A stretch of DNA of 64,000 nt, taken from Agromyces sp. NDB4Y10. Its GTDB lineage: Bacteria; Actinomycetota; Actinomycetes; Actinomycetales; Microbacteriaceae. A program made the position numbers and the translations under genes. The notes beneath the pieces were generated by a model, which saw only the letters and a list, made by a program, of their open reading frames with translations, did not search any database and was not told where the DNA came from. Shown here in pieces: positions 2,827 through 58,111 of the stretch (position 1 is its first letter; each line of letters opens with the position of its first letter). The stretch spans positions 1-64,000 of the forward strand of contig NZ_LQGY01000034.1 of NCBI RefSeq assembly GCF_001620055.1, written 5' to 3'.

Positions 2827-3780
2827 TCAGGTGCGGAGCACGACGTTCCGCGGCTCCTCGCCGCGTCGCATCCGCTCGATCTGGTCTCGCAGCAGCCGCG
2901 CCATGCGCGGCATCATCGCGGTCGTGGCGCCGCCGACGTGCGGGGAGATCAGCACGTTCGGCAGCGCGAGGAGCGGGTGCCCGTCGGGCAGCGGCTCGGG
3001 ATCGGTGACGTCGAGCGCGAAGCGGAGCCGCCCGCTCGACGCCTCGGCGAGGATCGCCTCCGTGTCGGCGACCGGCCCGCGAGCGACGTTCACCACGAGC
3101 GCACCGTCGGGCAGCGCGGCGAGGAACTCCGCGTCCACGAGGCGGGCCGTGGCATCCGTCAACGGCACGACGACGATCACGATCTCGGCCCGGGGGAGCA
3201 GCGCGGGCAGCTCGTCGATGCCGTGGACGCGGCCGACCTCGTCGTCGCGCGCACGGCTGGCGACGCGGGTCAGCTCGACTTCGAACGGCGCGAGGCGGGC
3301 CTCGATCGCCCGGCCCACGCCGCCGTAGCCGACGAGGAGCACGCGTCGGTCGGCGAGGCTCGCGTGGCGCGCCGGCGCCCATCGCCCCTCGGTCGCCGCT
3401 CGTACGAAGTCGGGCAGGCCGCGCTGCGCCGCGATCGCGAGGCCCACCGCGAGCTCGGCCGTCGAGGTCTCGTGCACGGATGCCGCGTTGGCGAACACGT
3501 GCCCCGGCGGCAGTGCCGCCGCGATGTCGTCGTACCCGATCGACTGCGACTGCACGAGGCCCACGTCGAGCCCCTCGAGGGCGCCGAGCCGGCCGGACGC
3601 CCCCATGTACGGCGGCACCACCACGTCGATGCGGCGACCGGATGCCGCGCCGGGGGGCGGACCGGCCAGGTCCCACTCGACCAGCTCGACCCCGTCGGGC
3701 ACGCCGCCGGGCGTCTGTTCGAGCGCGCGACGGAGCGTCGCGCCGGGCACGGTGACGAGGAGGGGCCGGGTCTCGGTCAT
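2827..3780 (-). CDS. D-2-hydroxyacid dehydrogenase (NAD-dependent)
   Basis: 317 aa, normal length for the family. Rossmann motif GYGGVG at residues 151-156; catalytic triad visible as Arg234 (NVARG), Glu262 (DPEPLPDGHPL) and His281 (SPHVGG). Family reaction: reversible reduction of a 2-keto acid with NAD(P)H; the substrate cannot be read from sequence. The ATG at 3780 lies 6 nt after GAGGAT on the minus strand, so the transcript is probably leaderless. It is convergent with the FG-GAP gene and divergent from the small membrane protein at 3840. Confidence 0.88.
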   Translation of the reverse strand: MTETRPLLVTVPGATLRRALEQTPGGVPDGVELVEWDLAGPPPGAASGRRIDVVVPPYMGASGRLGALEGLDVGLVQSQSIGYDDIAAALPPGHVFANAASVHETSTAELAVGLAIAAQRGLPDFVRAATEGRWAPARHASLADRRVLLVGYGGVGRAIEARLAPFEVELTRVASRARDDEVGRVHGIDELPALLPRAEIVIVVVPLTDATARLVDAEFLAALPDGALVVNVARGPVADTEAILAEASSGRLRFALDVTDPEPLPDGHPLLALPNVLISPHVGGATTAMMPRMARLLRDQIERMRRGEEPRNVVLRT

Positions 3781-4510: not shown

Positions 4511-5950
4511 TCACGCCCGGTCGGGTGCGGTTCCCGCTCGAGCCGGTCGACCGGGGGTCGGCCCGAGGGCGAGCGGGCCGGTGCGTCGCGCGGCGACGTG
4601 CGCCGCGGACGGCGCCGCGGTGGGCACCGCATCCGGCCGGGTGACCGCGACCGGGCGCGTGACCGGCACCGCGATCGCCGCGGTCGGCGCCTCGGCGTAG
4701 TCGAGCCCGAAGCGCGGCATCCACCCGTCTGCCGGATGCCGGACGACCCGCAGCCCGCGCGCGACGATGAGCCAGCCGATCCCGATCAGCGCGGCGATAC
4801 CGGCCGCGACGGCGGCGACGCCGAGCGCCCAGCGCGGACCCCAGGCGTTCGCCACGGCGCCCACGATCGGCGCGCCGATGGGCGTGCCGCCGGAGAGGAT
4901 CGCCATGTACAGCGCCATCACGCGGCCGCGCAGCAGCGGGTCGGTCGTGGTCTGCACGTAGCCGTTCGCCGTAGTCAGCATGGTCACCACGCTGAAGCCG
5001 ATGAACACCGTCGACGCGGCGAACAGCCAGTACGTGGGCATGACGGAGGCCACCGTCGCGGCGACGCCGAAGAACGCGACCGCCGCGATGATGACGCGCA
5101 TGCGGGCGCGCTCGCGCTTGGCGGCGAGCAGCGCGCCGGTGAGCGAACCGATGGCGAGGATCGACGACAGCAGCCCGTACTCGCCTGCGCCGCGGCCGAA
5201 CTCGACGGCCATGGTCGAGGCGAAGATGGGGAAGTTCATGCCGAACGCGCCGACGAGGAACACGATGACGAACACGACCATGAGGTCGGGGCGGCCTGCG
5301 GCGTAGCGGAAGCCGGCGACGAACTGGCCGCGCTCGCGCGGCGCCCGCGGCATCCGTCGCAGCCTCGAAACGCGCAGCTTGGCGAGCGCCACGAGCACCG
5401 CCACGAACGTGATCGCGTTGATGACGAACACCCAGCCGGAGCCGACGAGGACGATGAGCAGGCCCGCGAGCGCCGGCCCGATCATGCGGGCGGCGTTGAA
5501 CGAGGCGGAGTTCAGGGCGACCGCGTTCGACATGTTCGACGATGACACGAGGTCGGCGACGAACGTCTGGCGGGCGGGCAGGTCGACGGCGTTGACGATG
5601 CCGAGGAGGCCGGCGAAGCCGTAGAGGTGCCACAGCTCGGCGTGGCCGAAGATGAGCAGCGCGCCGAGGGCGAGGCCGAGCGCCATGAGCGCCGACTGCG
5701 TGAACATGAGGACCTTGCGCCGCTCGAACCGGTCGGCGATGAGCCCGGTGACGGGCACGAGCAGGAGCTGGGGCGCGAACTGCAGCGCCATCGTGATGCC
5801 GACGGCGAACGCGTCGTTGTCGGTCAGCTCGGTGAGCACGACCCAGCTCTGGGCCGTGGCCTGCATCCAGGCGCCGATGTTGGAGATGAGCGCGCCGACG
5901 AACCAGATGCGGTAGTCGACCGACGCGAGGGAGCGGAACATGGCTTTCAC
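4511..5950 (-). CDS. MFS transporter (MFS_3/EntS-like exporter)
   Basis: 479 aa with about twelve hydrophobic segments. The N-terminal FRSLASVDYRIWFVGALISN and the loop LIADRFERRKVLM (MFS motif A variant, between helices 2 and 3) match the MFS_3 group of drug/siderophore exporters. The last 60 residues are a Pro/Ala-rich cytoplasmic tail. The GTG start at 5950 overlaps the stop of the MarR gene (GTGA), the classical arrangement for translational coupling; it is 3 codons longer than the alternative ATG at 5941. The substrate is unknown, probably a compound sensed by the adjacent MarR regulator. Confidence 0.88.
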   Translation of the reverse strand: MKAMFRSLASVDYRIWFVGALISNIGAWMQATAQSWVVLTELTDNDAFAVGITMALQFAPQLLLVPVTGLIADRFERRKVLMFTQSALMALGLALGALLIFGHAELWHLYGFAGLLGIVNAVDLPARQTFVADLVSSSNMSNAVALNSASFNAARMIGPALAGLLIVLVGSGWVFVINAITFVAVLVALAKLRVSRLRRMPRAPRERGQFVAGFRYAAGRPDLMVVFVIVFLVGAFGMNFPIFASTMAVEFGRGAGEYGLLSSILAIGSLTGALLAAKRERARMRVIIAAVAFFGVAATVASVMPTYWLFAASTVFIGFSVVTMLTTANGYVQTTTDPLLRGRVMALYMAILSGGTPIGAPIVGAVANAWGPRWALGVAAVAAGIAALIGIGWLIVARGLRVVRHPADGWMPRFGLDYAEAPTAAIAVPVTRPVAVTRPDAVPTAAPSAAHVAARRTGPLALGPTPGRPARAGTAPDRA

Positions 5951-56131: not shown

Positions 56132-57072
56132 GCACCGACATCCGCGTGGCGGCCGCCGAATCCGAGGCGGTGCAGCCCGATCGAAGCGGCACGGATGCCG
56201 CCACCCGGTCGGTCCCGGCCGGCCCCCGGGGCCGGGCGCGAACCAAGCGACGCGTGGGCACGGTGCTCGCGTGGGTCGCGCTCTCGCTCCTCGGCATCGT
56301 GTTCGTGTACCCGTTCGTGTGGCTGGTCAGCGCATCCTTCAAGCCGCGCAGCGACGTCTTCGACAACCGGCTCATCCCGGAGACGTTCACCTGGGACAAC
56401 TACTTCCAGGTGTGGCAGGAGGCGCCGCTCGCGCTCTGGATCCTGAACACCGCGATCGTCACGGTGCTCGCGGCCGTGACGGTCACGATCTCGAGCGCCA
56501 TGGTCGCGTGGGGATTCGCCTACTTCCGCTTCCGGGGCCGCGGGGTGCTGTTCGGGCTCGTGCTGGCGACCATGATGCTGCCGGGCGCGGTGACGATGAT
56601 CCCGACGTTCCTGATCTGGAACGCGCTCGGACAGGTGGGCACGCTCACCCCGCTGTGGGCGGGCAACCTCTTCGGCAGCGCGTTCTACATCTTCCTGCTG
56701 CGGCAGTTCTTCCTCGGGCTGCCGCGCGACCTGTTCGAGGCGGCGCGCATCGACGGGGCGAGCCAGTGGGGCGTCTTCTGGCGCATCGCCCTGCCCCTCA
56801 CGGGTCCGGCGCTCGCCGTGGTGCTCGTGTTCGAGGTGCAGGCGGTGTGGACCGACCTCATGCGCGCGCTGATCTACCTGCGCGACTCGTCGACGTTCAC
56901 GGTGCCGCGCGGCCTCAAGTCGCTCGTCGACGCCTACGGCTTCGGCGGCGAGTGGCACTGGGAGATCATCGTCACGGCAAGCGTGATCACGACGATCCCG
57001 CTGATCATCGTGTTCTTCCTCGCGCAGAAGCGGATCATCGACGGGGTCGCCTCGACGGGACTCAAGGGCTAG
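56128..57072 (+). CDS. CUT1 sugar ABC permease (MalG type, operon 2)
   Basis: 314 aa, six membrane segments, EAA loop DLFEAARIDGASQWGVFWRIALPLTGP, C-terminal QKRIIDGVASTGLKG as in MalG-like subunits. As in the beta-glucoside operon there is no ATPase gene; a shared MsiK-type ATPase elsewhere is the expected partner. Confidence 0.9.
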   Translation: MSTDIRVAAAESEAVQPDRSGTDAATRSVPAGPRGRARTKRRVGTVLAWVALSLLGIVFVYPFVWLVSASFKPRSDVFDNRLIPETFTWDNYFQVWQEAPLALWILNTAIVTVLAAVTVTISSAMVAWGFAYFRFRGRGVLFGLVLATMMLPGAVTMIPTFLIWNALGQVGTLTPLWAGNLFGSAFYIFLLRQFFLGLPRDLFEAARIDGASQWGVFWRIALPLTGPALAVVLVFEVQAVWTDLMRALIYLRDSSTFTVPRGLKSLVDAYGFGGEWHWEIIVTASVITTIPLIIVFFLAQKRIIDGVASTGLKG

Positions 57073-57077
57073 ACGAG

Positions 57078-57128
57078 CGGATGCCGCGGGGCCGGCCGCG
57101 CCCCCCACGCCCCGCCTCGCGGCATCCG
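57078..57128. terminator. Hairpin built from GGATGCC/GGCATCC arms
   Basis: CGGATGCCGCG (57078-57088) and CGCGGCATCCG (57118-57128), 11-bp perfect stem between convergent permease and DUF6766 genes. Confidence 0.5.
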
Positions 57129-57129
57129 T

Positions 57130-57798
57130 TCAGCCCTCGACCGCGGTGACGTCGTGCGGCGTGCCCACGGGCTTCGACTCGCTCGAGCCGCGCTGTCGCA
57201 GGACGATGGTCAGGGCGACCATGCTGCCGACGGCGAGGAACTCCGACTGCCAGTTCTGCAGGGTGCGGTTCCAGAAGTCCGGGTTCACGACGTACTCCGC
57301 GAGGGTGACGGCAGGCTCGCCGTGCATGGCCTGCTCCTCGTTGTAGACGACCTGTCCGGTGAGGGCCTGCGCGAGCCACGAGAGCAGGAAGATCGCGCCC
57401 ATCGTCACCAGGAGCGAGTTGCTGTAGAGCCACAGACGCCAGCCGCCGACGCGAGCCCAGCGAGGCGAGTCCGGGAGGGCGTGCCGGCCGACGTGCTGCT
57501 CGTCGTCGCCCTCCACGCCTTCCTCGCCGGGCTGCTTCGACTCGGGCGACCCGCGCTGCACGAACCAGATCGTCGCGAGGATGAAGGCGAAGAACTGGAG
57601 GTACTCGGACTGCCAGTTCTCGGCGACGTCGACCACGAAGTCGGACGAGGTCACGAACTGCACCCAGGTCTCGACCGGCTGGCCGTGCTCGACGTGCTCC
57701 TCGTTCACGACCGCGAGACCGGCGAGGGACTGCAGGCCCAGCGAGATCAGGAACAGCGCGGCGAAGACGATGCTGAGCAGGTGCTGGCGGACGCGCAT
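57130..57798 (-). CDS. DUF6766 membrane protein with internal duplication
   Basis: 222 aa. Two repeats of one unit, each with two membrane segments: LQSLAGLAVVNEEHVEHGQPV...FVVDVAENWQSEYLQFFAFILATIWFVQRGSPESKQPG and AQALTGQVVYNEEQAMHGEPA...FWNRTLQNWQSEFLAVGSMVALTIVLRQRGSSESKPVG. Four helices in total with a charged loop around residues 95-115. No known function. The SD GGGAGGT contains the TAG stop of the 27-aa ORF just upstream, so translation is probably coupled. Confidence 0.85.
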   Translation of the reverse strand: MRVRQHLLSIVFAALFLISLGLQSLAGLAVVNEEHVEHGQPVETWVQFVTSSDFVVDVAENWQSEYLQFFAFILATIWFVQRGSPESKQPGEEGVEGDDEQHVGRHALPDSPRWARVGGWRLWLYSNSLLVTMGAIFLLSWLAQALTGQVVYNEEQAMHGEPAVTLAEYVVNPDFWNRTLQNWQSEFLAVGSMVALTIVLRQRGSSESKPVGTPHDVTAVEG

Positions 57799-57800
57799 GG

Positions 57801-57884
57801 CTACCTCCCGGAGAGTGCGACGGCGAACATGTACGCGAGCCCGGCGAAGATGCCGACCACCCACGCGGTGAACACGAGCCTCAT
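57801..57884 (-). CDS. 27-aa single-helix membrane peptide upstream of DUF6766
   Basis: MRLVFTAWVVGIFAGLAYMF and then AVALSGR: one membrane helix with a basic end. Not visible by ORF-length thresholds. TACGTT-N6-ATG gives a leaderless promoter, and its stop codon lies in the ribosome site of the DUF6766 gene 2 nt before that ATG, so both genes share one transcript. Function unknown; a small partner subunit or a leader peptide are the two obvious ideas. Confidence 0.6.
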   Translation of the reverse strand: MRLVFTAWVVGIFAGLAYMFAVALSGR

Positions 57885-57890
57885 GCTCGG

Positions 57891-57896
57891 AACGTA
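57891..57896 (-). promoter_or_regulatory. -10 hexamer, leaderless start of 27-aa ORF
   Basis: TACGTT on the minus strand, 6 nt (CCGAGC), then ATG at 57884. Confidence 0.55.
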
Positions 57897-57975
57897 CTCC
57901 CCGAGCAGCGCGTTCCGGCATGGGCTTGACGGGAGGCGGTCGGGCCGTCGATTGGCGCCGCGGCGGCGGGTGGGT

Positions 57976-57981
57976 TAGAGT
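57976..57981 (+). promoter_or_regulatory. -10 element of tRNA-Arg promoter
   Basis: TAGAGT, 46 nt before the tRNA; -35 candidate TTGGCG 18 nt upstream. Confidence 0.55.
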
Positions 57982-58026
57982 AACGGGGTTGCCTGATGAG
58001 CGGAGATCGCGCAGGCGACATCCCAT

Positions 58027-58099
58027 GCGCCCGTAGCTCAATGGATAGAGCATCTGACTACGGATCAGAAGGTTGGGGGTTCGAGTCCCTCCGGGCGCG
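58027..58099 (+). tRNA. tRNA-Arg(ACG)
   Basis: 73 nt. Acceptor GCGCCCG pairs with CGGGCGC; D arm with GGATAGAGC; anticodon loop CTACGGA with anticodon ACG at 58060-58062 between TCTGA and TCAGA; T arm GGGGGTTCGAGTCCCTC. CCA not encoded. Confidence 0.96.
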
Positions 58100-58111
58100 C
58101 GGAACCACTGA

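Follow-up and report, generated by a model that had tools for sequence, protein, structure and literature searches.

A conserved 27-residue membrane peptide encoded before DUF6766 in actinobacteria, with a putative leaderless start in one lineage

Results

A small open reading frame before the DUF6766 gene of Agromyces

The analysed stretch of DNA (hereafter the window) comprises 64,000 nucleotides from Agromyces sp. NDB4Y10. Positions 57130–57798 of its minus strand encode a membrane protein of 222 aa built of two tandem halves. We assigned it to DUF6766 (PF20554) on the basis of a profile match over residues 3–219 of 222 (311 bits against a curated cut-off of 27); the motifs NWQSE and QRGSxESK occur in each half. 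Directly before this gene, at 57801–57884 on the minus strand, lies the 27-codon ORF described in the original prediction. It reads out as a single-helix membrane peptide, MRLVFTAWVVGIFAGLAYMFAVALSGR, and ends with TAG; its identification as a gene comes from the comparison across loci given below.

The junction between the two frames reads ...TCC GGG AGG TAG CC ATG, with the TAG 2 nt 5′ of the DUF6766 ATG. As read from the sequence, GGGAGG (57804–57809, minus strand) forms the codons for Gly26 and Arg27 of the peptide and the ribosome site of DUF6766 at once, which bears out the earlier claim that the stop codon is embedded in that site.

On the other side of the mini-ORF, a −10-like hexamer, TACGTT (57891–57896, minus strand), stands 6 nt 5′ of the ATG. 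This is the predicted TACGTT-N6-ATG geometry, and it has the form of a leaderless start, with the hexamer directly before the ATG and no ribosome site. Further upstream, CAAGCCCATGCCGG (57915–57928, minus strand) resembles, by eye, a CAAGGsCCTGCCGG-like block that precedes the peptide in several Leucobacter and Agromyces loci; it is perhaps the −35 region of the mini-ORF promoter. A generic sigma-70 promoter and terminator scan of window positions 57000–58100 returned no site. A SigR/SigH-type reading was also considered, based on what we take to be a match of GGAAC-N18-GTT to the consensus, and was dropped by eye: relatives keep TANNNT, often not GTT. A divergent tRNA-Arg (acg) gene is located upstream of the mini-ORF, at 58027–58100 on the plus strand.

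G or C occupies 26 of the 27 third codon positions, as had been pointed out. Here this is weak evidence when taken alone, because other frames around the mini-ORF are open too and this part of the window is rich in spurious ones. Searches with the peptide against Pfam and NCBIfam gave no family at E ≤ 1 in either database, and short queries are hard for such searches.

The peptide is conserved in sequence, length and place

We examined the best 80 of 302 DUF6766 relatives found by a tblastn-confirmed scan of species-level genomes. For the peptide profile we used 64 clean copies, the window's own and 63 taken from these loci, which makes the profile scores, though not the positions of the matches, partly circular. 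The profile reached at least 11 bits directly before DUF6766 in 78 of these 80 best relatives, and a similar ORF is present in 79 of the 80. The additional locus, L050, scores only 6 bits, but its 27-codon hydrophobic ORF stands at the right place and is plain by eye. The sole negative is L054 (Virgisporangium), where no peptide ORF is found beside DUF6766. Fourteen of the 80 loci looked odd or peptide-less at first, mostly since the fetched match began off the true start, and 12 of them later reached at least 11 bits. At one of the sampled starts, in Plantibacter (L021, about 2912–3000), the 80–90 nt between the peptide and the fetched DUF6766 start resemble a partial copy of that start (MRHLRDHALS repeated).

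For further comparison we used the 89 loci that reach 10 bits, drawn from the 80-locus sample and 11 further loci, among them the window's own copy (L081). The ORF is exactly 27 codons long from the aligned start in 82 of them and 29 codons long in two; the other five (four Agrococcus, one Actinophytocola) lack a start codon there and must extend further at the N-terminus. The alignment needs no internal gap. The most conserved positions, by weight, are Gly15 and Leu16 (96% each) and Phe5 (92%), and position 2 is Arg or Lys throughout. In 29 non-overlapping close pairs pN/pS was 0.48 (223 nonsynonymous and 175 synonymous differences; binomial p 5e-13), and in 250 pooled close pairs the ratio was 0.61 in frame vs. 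0.97 and 1.30 in the other frames. Judging from these ratios, which are uncorrected and moderate, selection on the peptide is purifying. Along the peptide, conservation is periodic with its maximum at 100 degrees per residue (permutation p 0.00095), the pattern that a helix constrained on one face would give.

These results leave a negligible probability that the mini-ORF is a chance open frame in G+C-rich DNA. Spurious frames are indeed frequent in this part of the window, but conservation before DUF6766, selection in frame and helix periodicity refute such an origin. Homologous loci, in which the absence of a conserved hydrophobic mini-ORF would have spoken against the original prediction, keep it in sequence, length and place. 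We consider it practically certain that the mini-ORF is a real gene, one for a conserved 27-residue, putatively single-span membrane protein.

The peptide accompanies one group of DUF6766 proteins

One even draw of 396 actinobacterial genomes was searched with both PF20554 and the peptide alignment. PF20554 matched in 22 of the 396, in 12 of them over its full length. At E ≤ 0.01 the peptide alignment matched in 10 genomes, belonging to classes across the phylum, with a single match in each; nine of these ten matches adjoin DUF6766. The tenth (E 0.0075) lies inside an 862-aa frame and is not credible. Altogether the peptide stands beside 10 of the 12 full-length DUF6766 genes: nine were found by the search, and one (genome G121) scores 12 bits in its locus. 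The two full-length genes without a peptide in this draw are those of G298 and G042 (loci L084 and L088). In three genomes with a peptide-less full-length DUF6766 we searched for a displaced copy; there was none in G298, and the other two gave weak matches inside long frames. The genome of L054 has no credible peptide elsewhere either.

Among plasmid records, 106 contain a DUF6766 match, and we examined 17. Both Streptomyces loci in this set have the peptide, which was not found at the 15 loci of Pseudomonadota, Deinococcota and Bacteroidota. Counting these 15 together with L084 and L088, DUF6766 outside the peptide-bearing group stands without a peptide in 17 of 17 loci. One of them, on a Spirosoma plasmid (L108, 3001–3642), is possibly broken: an in-frame stop interrupts the matched stretch, for which the record lists no gene. 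We left this one out of the protein comparison, which covers 16 peptide-less proteins. The two Streptomyces plasmid records also touch on the suggestion that gene callers would miss the peptide. Neither lists it in its gene table, which agrees with the suggestion as far as it goes, but the table is stated to be incomplete.

In a FastTree phylogeny of 106 DUF6766 proteins, the 16 peptide-less proteins fall on one side of a branch with support 1.0, and the 89 peptide-bearing ones together with L054 on the other. A tree of 92 proteins likewise separates L084 and L088 (100/100), but on long branches that leave their placement unsure. Twenty-five residues separate the two groups. Ten of them lie within residues 52–80, the second helix of the first repeat (hypergeometric p 0.0003, for a stretch picked after looking), and four in the matching part of the second repeat (173–203). 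The group difference is confounded with phylogeny, with other phyla supplying 14 of the 16 peptide-less proteins.

The DUF6766 protein of L054 is of the peptide-bearing type at eight of nine diagnostic residues checked, and its locus keeps the lipoprotein gene described in the next section, which here stands directly before DUF6766 with no peptide between. The peptide has thus been dispensable at least once. Six further actinobacterial loci (L094–L099) match only the first part of the DUF6766 profile (within positions 2–108) in frames of 125–220 aa, with no peptide alongside, and are perhaps half-length relatives.

Two gene arrangements, with and without a lipoprotein gene

In 49 of the 89 loci (among them L036–L040, L042–L049, L051–L053 and L104) a lipoprotein gene lies upstream of the peptide. 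Profile E-values range from 7e-58 to 2e-26 and are partly circular, 29 loci having supplied the profile. The lipoprotein is 124–155 residues long in the 29 aligned copies, with an invariant lipobox Cys after the signal peptide and four further invariant Cys. Pfam gave no match better than E 0.011. The structural model of the lipoprotein (pLDDT 88.7) has NTF2-like proteins as its top Foldseek matches, which are weak (best E 7e-3, TM about 0.4). We regard the family as undescribed and, from the model, its fold as probably NTF2-like. When PDB sequences were searched, the alignments of the lipoprotein and of DUF6766 found one match each, neither of them credible (E 0.08 and 1.4).

In 47 of the 49 loci the distance between the lipoprotein stop codon and the peptide start is −4 to +14 nt, and 21 have the overlap TGATG; the exceptions are L038 and L073, where the lipoprotein gene ends 92 and 59 nt before the peptide. 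In 28 of the 49, the DUF6766 frame permits a start that overlaps the peptide stop by 4 nt, if the earliest possible start is taken.

At the other 40 loci, the window's included, no lipoprotein gene was found upstream of the peptide. Ten of these genomes were searched whole, and the lipoprotein was absent but for one weak match (E 9e-4, genome of L001); it was not found in the window genome. Three lipoprotein-bearing genomes, which served as positive controls in the same search, gave strong matches.

The two arrangements differ in their signals, as shown by counts that come from related rows and are not independent events. TANNNT stands 6–7 nt before the peptide ATG in 27 of the 40 lipoprotein-less loci vs. 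0 of the 49 lipoprotein-bearing ones; the background, taken over the remaining ATGs of the lipoprotein-less loci with peptide starts excluded, is 40 of 5,165. A ribosome-site motif precedes the peptide start in 4/40 and 33/49, respectively. The leaderless pattern is missing in 13 of the 40, including the four Agrococcus loci, whose peptide must start elsewhere than at the aligned position. The leaderless promoter of the original prediction is real as a pattern, but it is confined to one sub-lineage.

The 3′ ends differ as well. The peptide ends with Gly-Arg in 39 of 40 lipoprotein-less loci vs. 4 of 49 lipoprotein-bearing ones, and the last 12 nt of its ORF plus the stop contain a ribosome-site motif in 21/40 vs. 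0/49. The C-terminal Arg is encoded by AGG or AGA in 21 of 39 cases, compared with 31 of 381 Arg codons in the DUF6766 frames of the same group. This codon bias calls for caution, as the same two codons are also frequent for the Arg at position 2 of the peptide (16/26), where no ribosome site is involved.

All lipoprotein-less rows but L087 (39 of 40) group together in the tree of 92 DUF6766 proteins (94/74, not strong), and lipoprotein-bearing Herbiconiux, Cryobacterium and others are placed just outside this group. As judged from these sequences, the simplest reading would be that the lipoprotein gene was lost in this lineage and a promoter came to be placed directly on the peptide start codon. 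The leaderless start thus looks like a later feature of one lineage.

Predicted structure and gene neighbourhood

We modelled the peptide and DUF6766 as a fused chain, using the Paeniglutamicibacter sequence read through with Trp for the stop (52 alignment rows, 17 paired). The model is of moderate confidence (pLDDT 75, pTM 0.60, peptide blocks 63–74). In this relative, the peptide forms a helix over residues 2–24, and each DUF6766 half consists of two long helices with a short one between them. From the modelled helix and the periodic conservation, the peptide is predicted to be a single membrane-spanning helix with a constrained face. The model neither supports nor refutes docking, because no contacts were obtained and the forced short linker would bias them. 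A Foldseek search with it returned no related solved fold (best E 2.2), and for that reason the fold suggests no function for DUF6766. A search of an open-access literature collection for 'DUF6766' and 'PF20554' found no paper on either.

Plasmid-borne DUF6766 genes, in some alphaproteobacterial and Streptomyces records, have neighbours encoding ferritin-like, hemerythrin, Hsp20, CBS-domain and metal or iron transport proteins. These neighbours are a hint that a DUF6766 complex may have a role in stress physiology. We clustered the neighbours of 92 loci and inspected the 14 largest clusters by eye: the largest consists of a shadow frame, another holds the lipoprotein, and several are confined to Nonomuraea and close relatives. 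No stress-type neighbours of the plasmid kind were recognised by eye among these 14 clusters of actinobacterial loci. An isochorismatase-like frame, labelled by eye, occurs near DUF6766 in eight loci (four Paeniglutamicibacter, one Arthrobacter and three Streptosporangiaceae), one of them at 4546–5212 of L031 (reverse-strand coordinates). DUF6766 on the Agrobacterium At plasmid is followed by a gene of the isochorismatase family.

Discussion

What the peptide may do

We believe that the peptide is probably a small accessory subunit of DUF6766, as had been suggested. The suggestion fits the linkage of the two genes, the one-sided conservation of the helix and the tie to one DUF6766 group; physical association of the two proteins stays putative.

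It seems unlikely that the peptide is a real small membrane protein merely co-expressed with DUF6766 and acting on the lipoprotein, on further copies of itself in an oligomer, or on the envelope more broadly. A conserved helix face calls for a partner without naming which, and the lipoprotein gene does precede the peptide in more than half of the 89 loci. Yet the peptide is kept where the lipoprotein gene is missing (in the ten genomes searched whole, apart from the weak match of L001), it has no credible copy away from DUF6766 in the 396 genomes, and it is tied to one DUF6766 group. Still less probable is a mainly translational role, in which reading the mini-ORF supplies ribosomes for the DUF6766 start and its product is idle. 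The peptide stop in or beside the DUF6766 ribosome site would suit such a role, as would the embedded motif in 21 of the 40 lipoprotein-less loci, and there is a mycobacterial precedent in which placement and coupling are kept and the sequence of the small protein is not (PMC4633059). Here the reverse is seen. The sequence and length of the peptide are kept while the start mechanism changes, the junction with DUF6766 ranges from a possible 4-nt overlap to a 66-nt gap (L129), and all 49 lipoprotein-bearing loci keep the peptide without the embedded motif. Since sequence and length persist while start and junction vary, the product, and not just its translation, seems to be selected.

Some type I toxin–antitoxin pairs have short hydrophobic peptides of similar look, and this resemblance is what speaks for a toxin-like peptide with DUF6766 as its antidote. 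We find that idea very improbable. The peptide occurs across classes of the phylum at a fixed length, with a single match in each of ten genomes, it is a member of a three-gene unit in 49 of the 89 loci, and its supposed antidote stands without it in all 17 loci outside the peptide-bearing group.

If the peptide is an accessory subunit, the window locus could work as follows. A two-gene transcript with the mini-ORF as its first cistron would begin with the first base of its ATG or right beside it. Ribosomes would start at this leaderless end, stop inside GGGAGG(TAG) and feed re-initiation at DUF6766 2 nt downstream. The helix may then pack against the four-helix DUF6766 protein through its conserved face (F5, W8, I12, G15/L16, M19, I22/G23), the likeliest docking region being around the second helix of the first repeat, and would stabilise or tune that protein.

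The other arrangement places the gene for a lipid-anchored, probably NTF2-like lipoprotein immediately ahead of that for the peptide, so that a three-part envelope complex was probably the original unit. We tentatively offer a fuller account, to which we give somewhat less than an even chance. It proposes a previously undescribed actinobacterial complex of an NTF2-like lipoprotein, a 27-residue helix and the four-helix DUF6766 protein. The lipoprotein gene would have been lost in one lineage, which takes in most of the sampled Microbacteriaceae and Micrococcaceae and a few others. There, a new promoter on the start codon of the tiny gene would have turned a coupled second cistron into a leaderless first one, and its last two codons would have become the ribosome site of DUF6766.

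If the peptide is indeed a subunit, work on DUF6766 alone would address an incomplete unit. Moreover, the same small protein found under two modes of translation start offers a natural comparison on whether an upstream ORF is selected for its product or for being translated.

Comparison with known systems

Small accessory subunits are a known kind of protein, and KdpF and AcrZ are single-helix accessory proteins of membrane transporters. The peptide would resemble them in kind, and DUF6766, unlike their partners, is not a known transporter; the peptide itself matched no described family in either database searched. The product of the upstream gene is comparable to NTF2-like lipoproteins in its invariant lipobox Cys and in the best Foldseek matches of its model. 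It departs from them in that no Pfam match falls below E 0.011 and the Foldseek E-value is only 7e-3, and the gene was not found in the window genome.

Another parallel is CydX, a 37-aa subunit of cytochrome bd oxidase that is reported to be essential and whose presence follows one CydA subtype (PMC4325964). CydX, too, is tiny, has a single helix and shares an operon with its membrane partner; few of its residues are strongly conserved (PMC4325964). CydX, however, belongs to a known enzyme and its gene comes last in cydABX, whereas the peptide gene precedes DUF6766 and its subunit role is putative.

The start of the mini-ORF recalls the leaderless, coupled small ORFs of mycobacteria. In these, the ATG stands at the transcript start after a −10 hexamer, the products are 5–50 residues long and unannotated, and the stop lies at or near the next start; ribosome-site sequences embedded in coding sequence at operon junctions are noted there as well (PMC4633059). 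The window has the same ATG after a −10 hexamer and a stop near the next start, and its start is predicted to be leaderless. The peptide family differs from the mycobacterial ORFs in that it spans many actinobacterial families, and its leaderless start looks like a later development in a single lineage.
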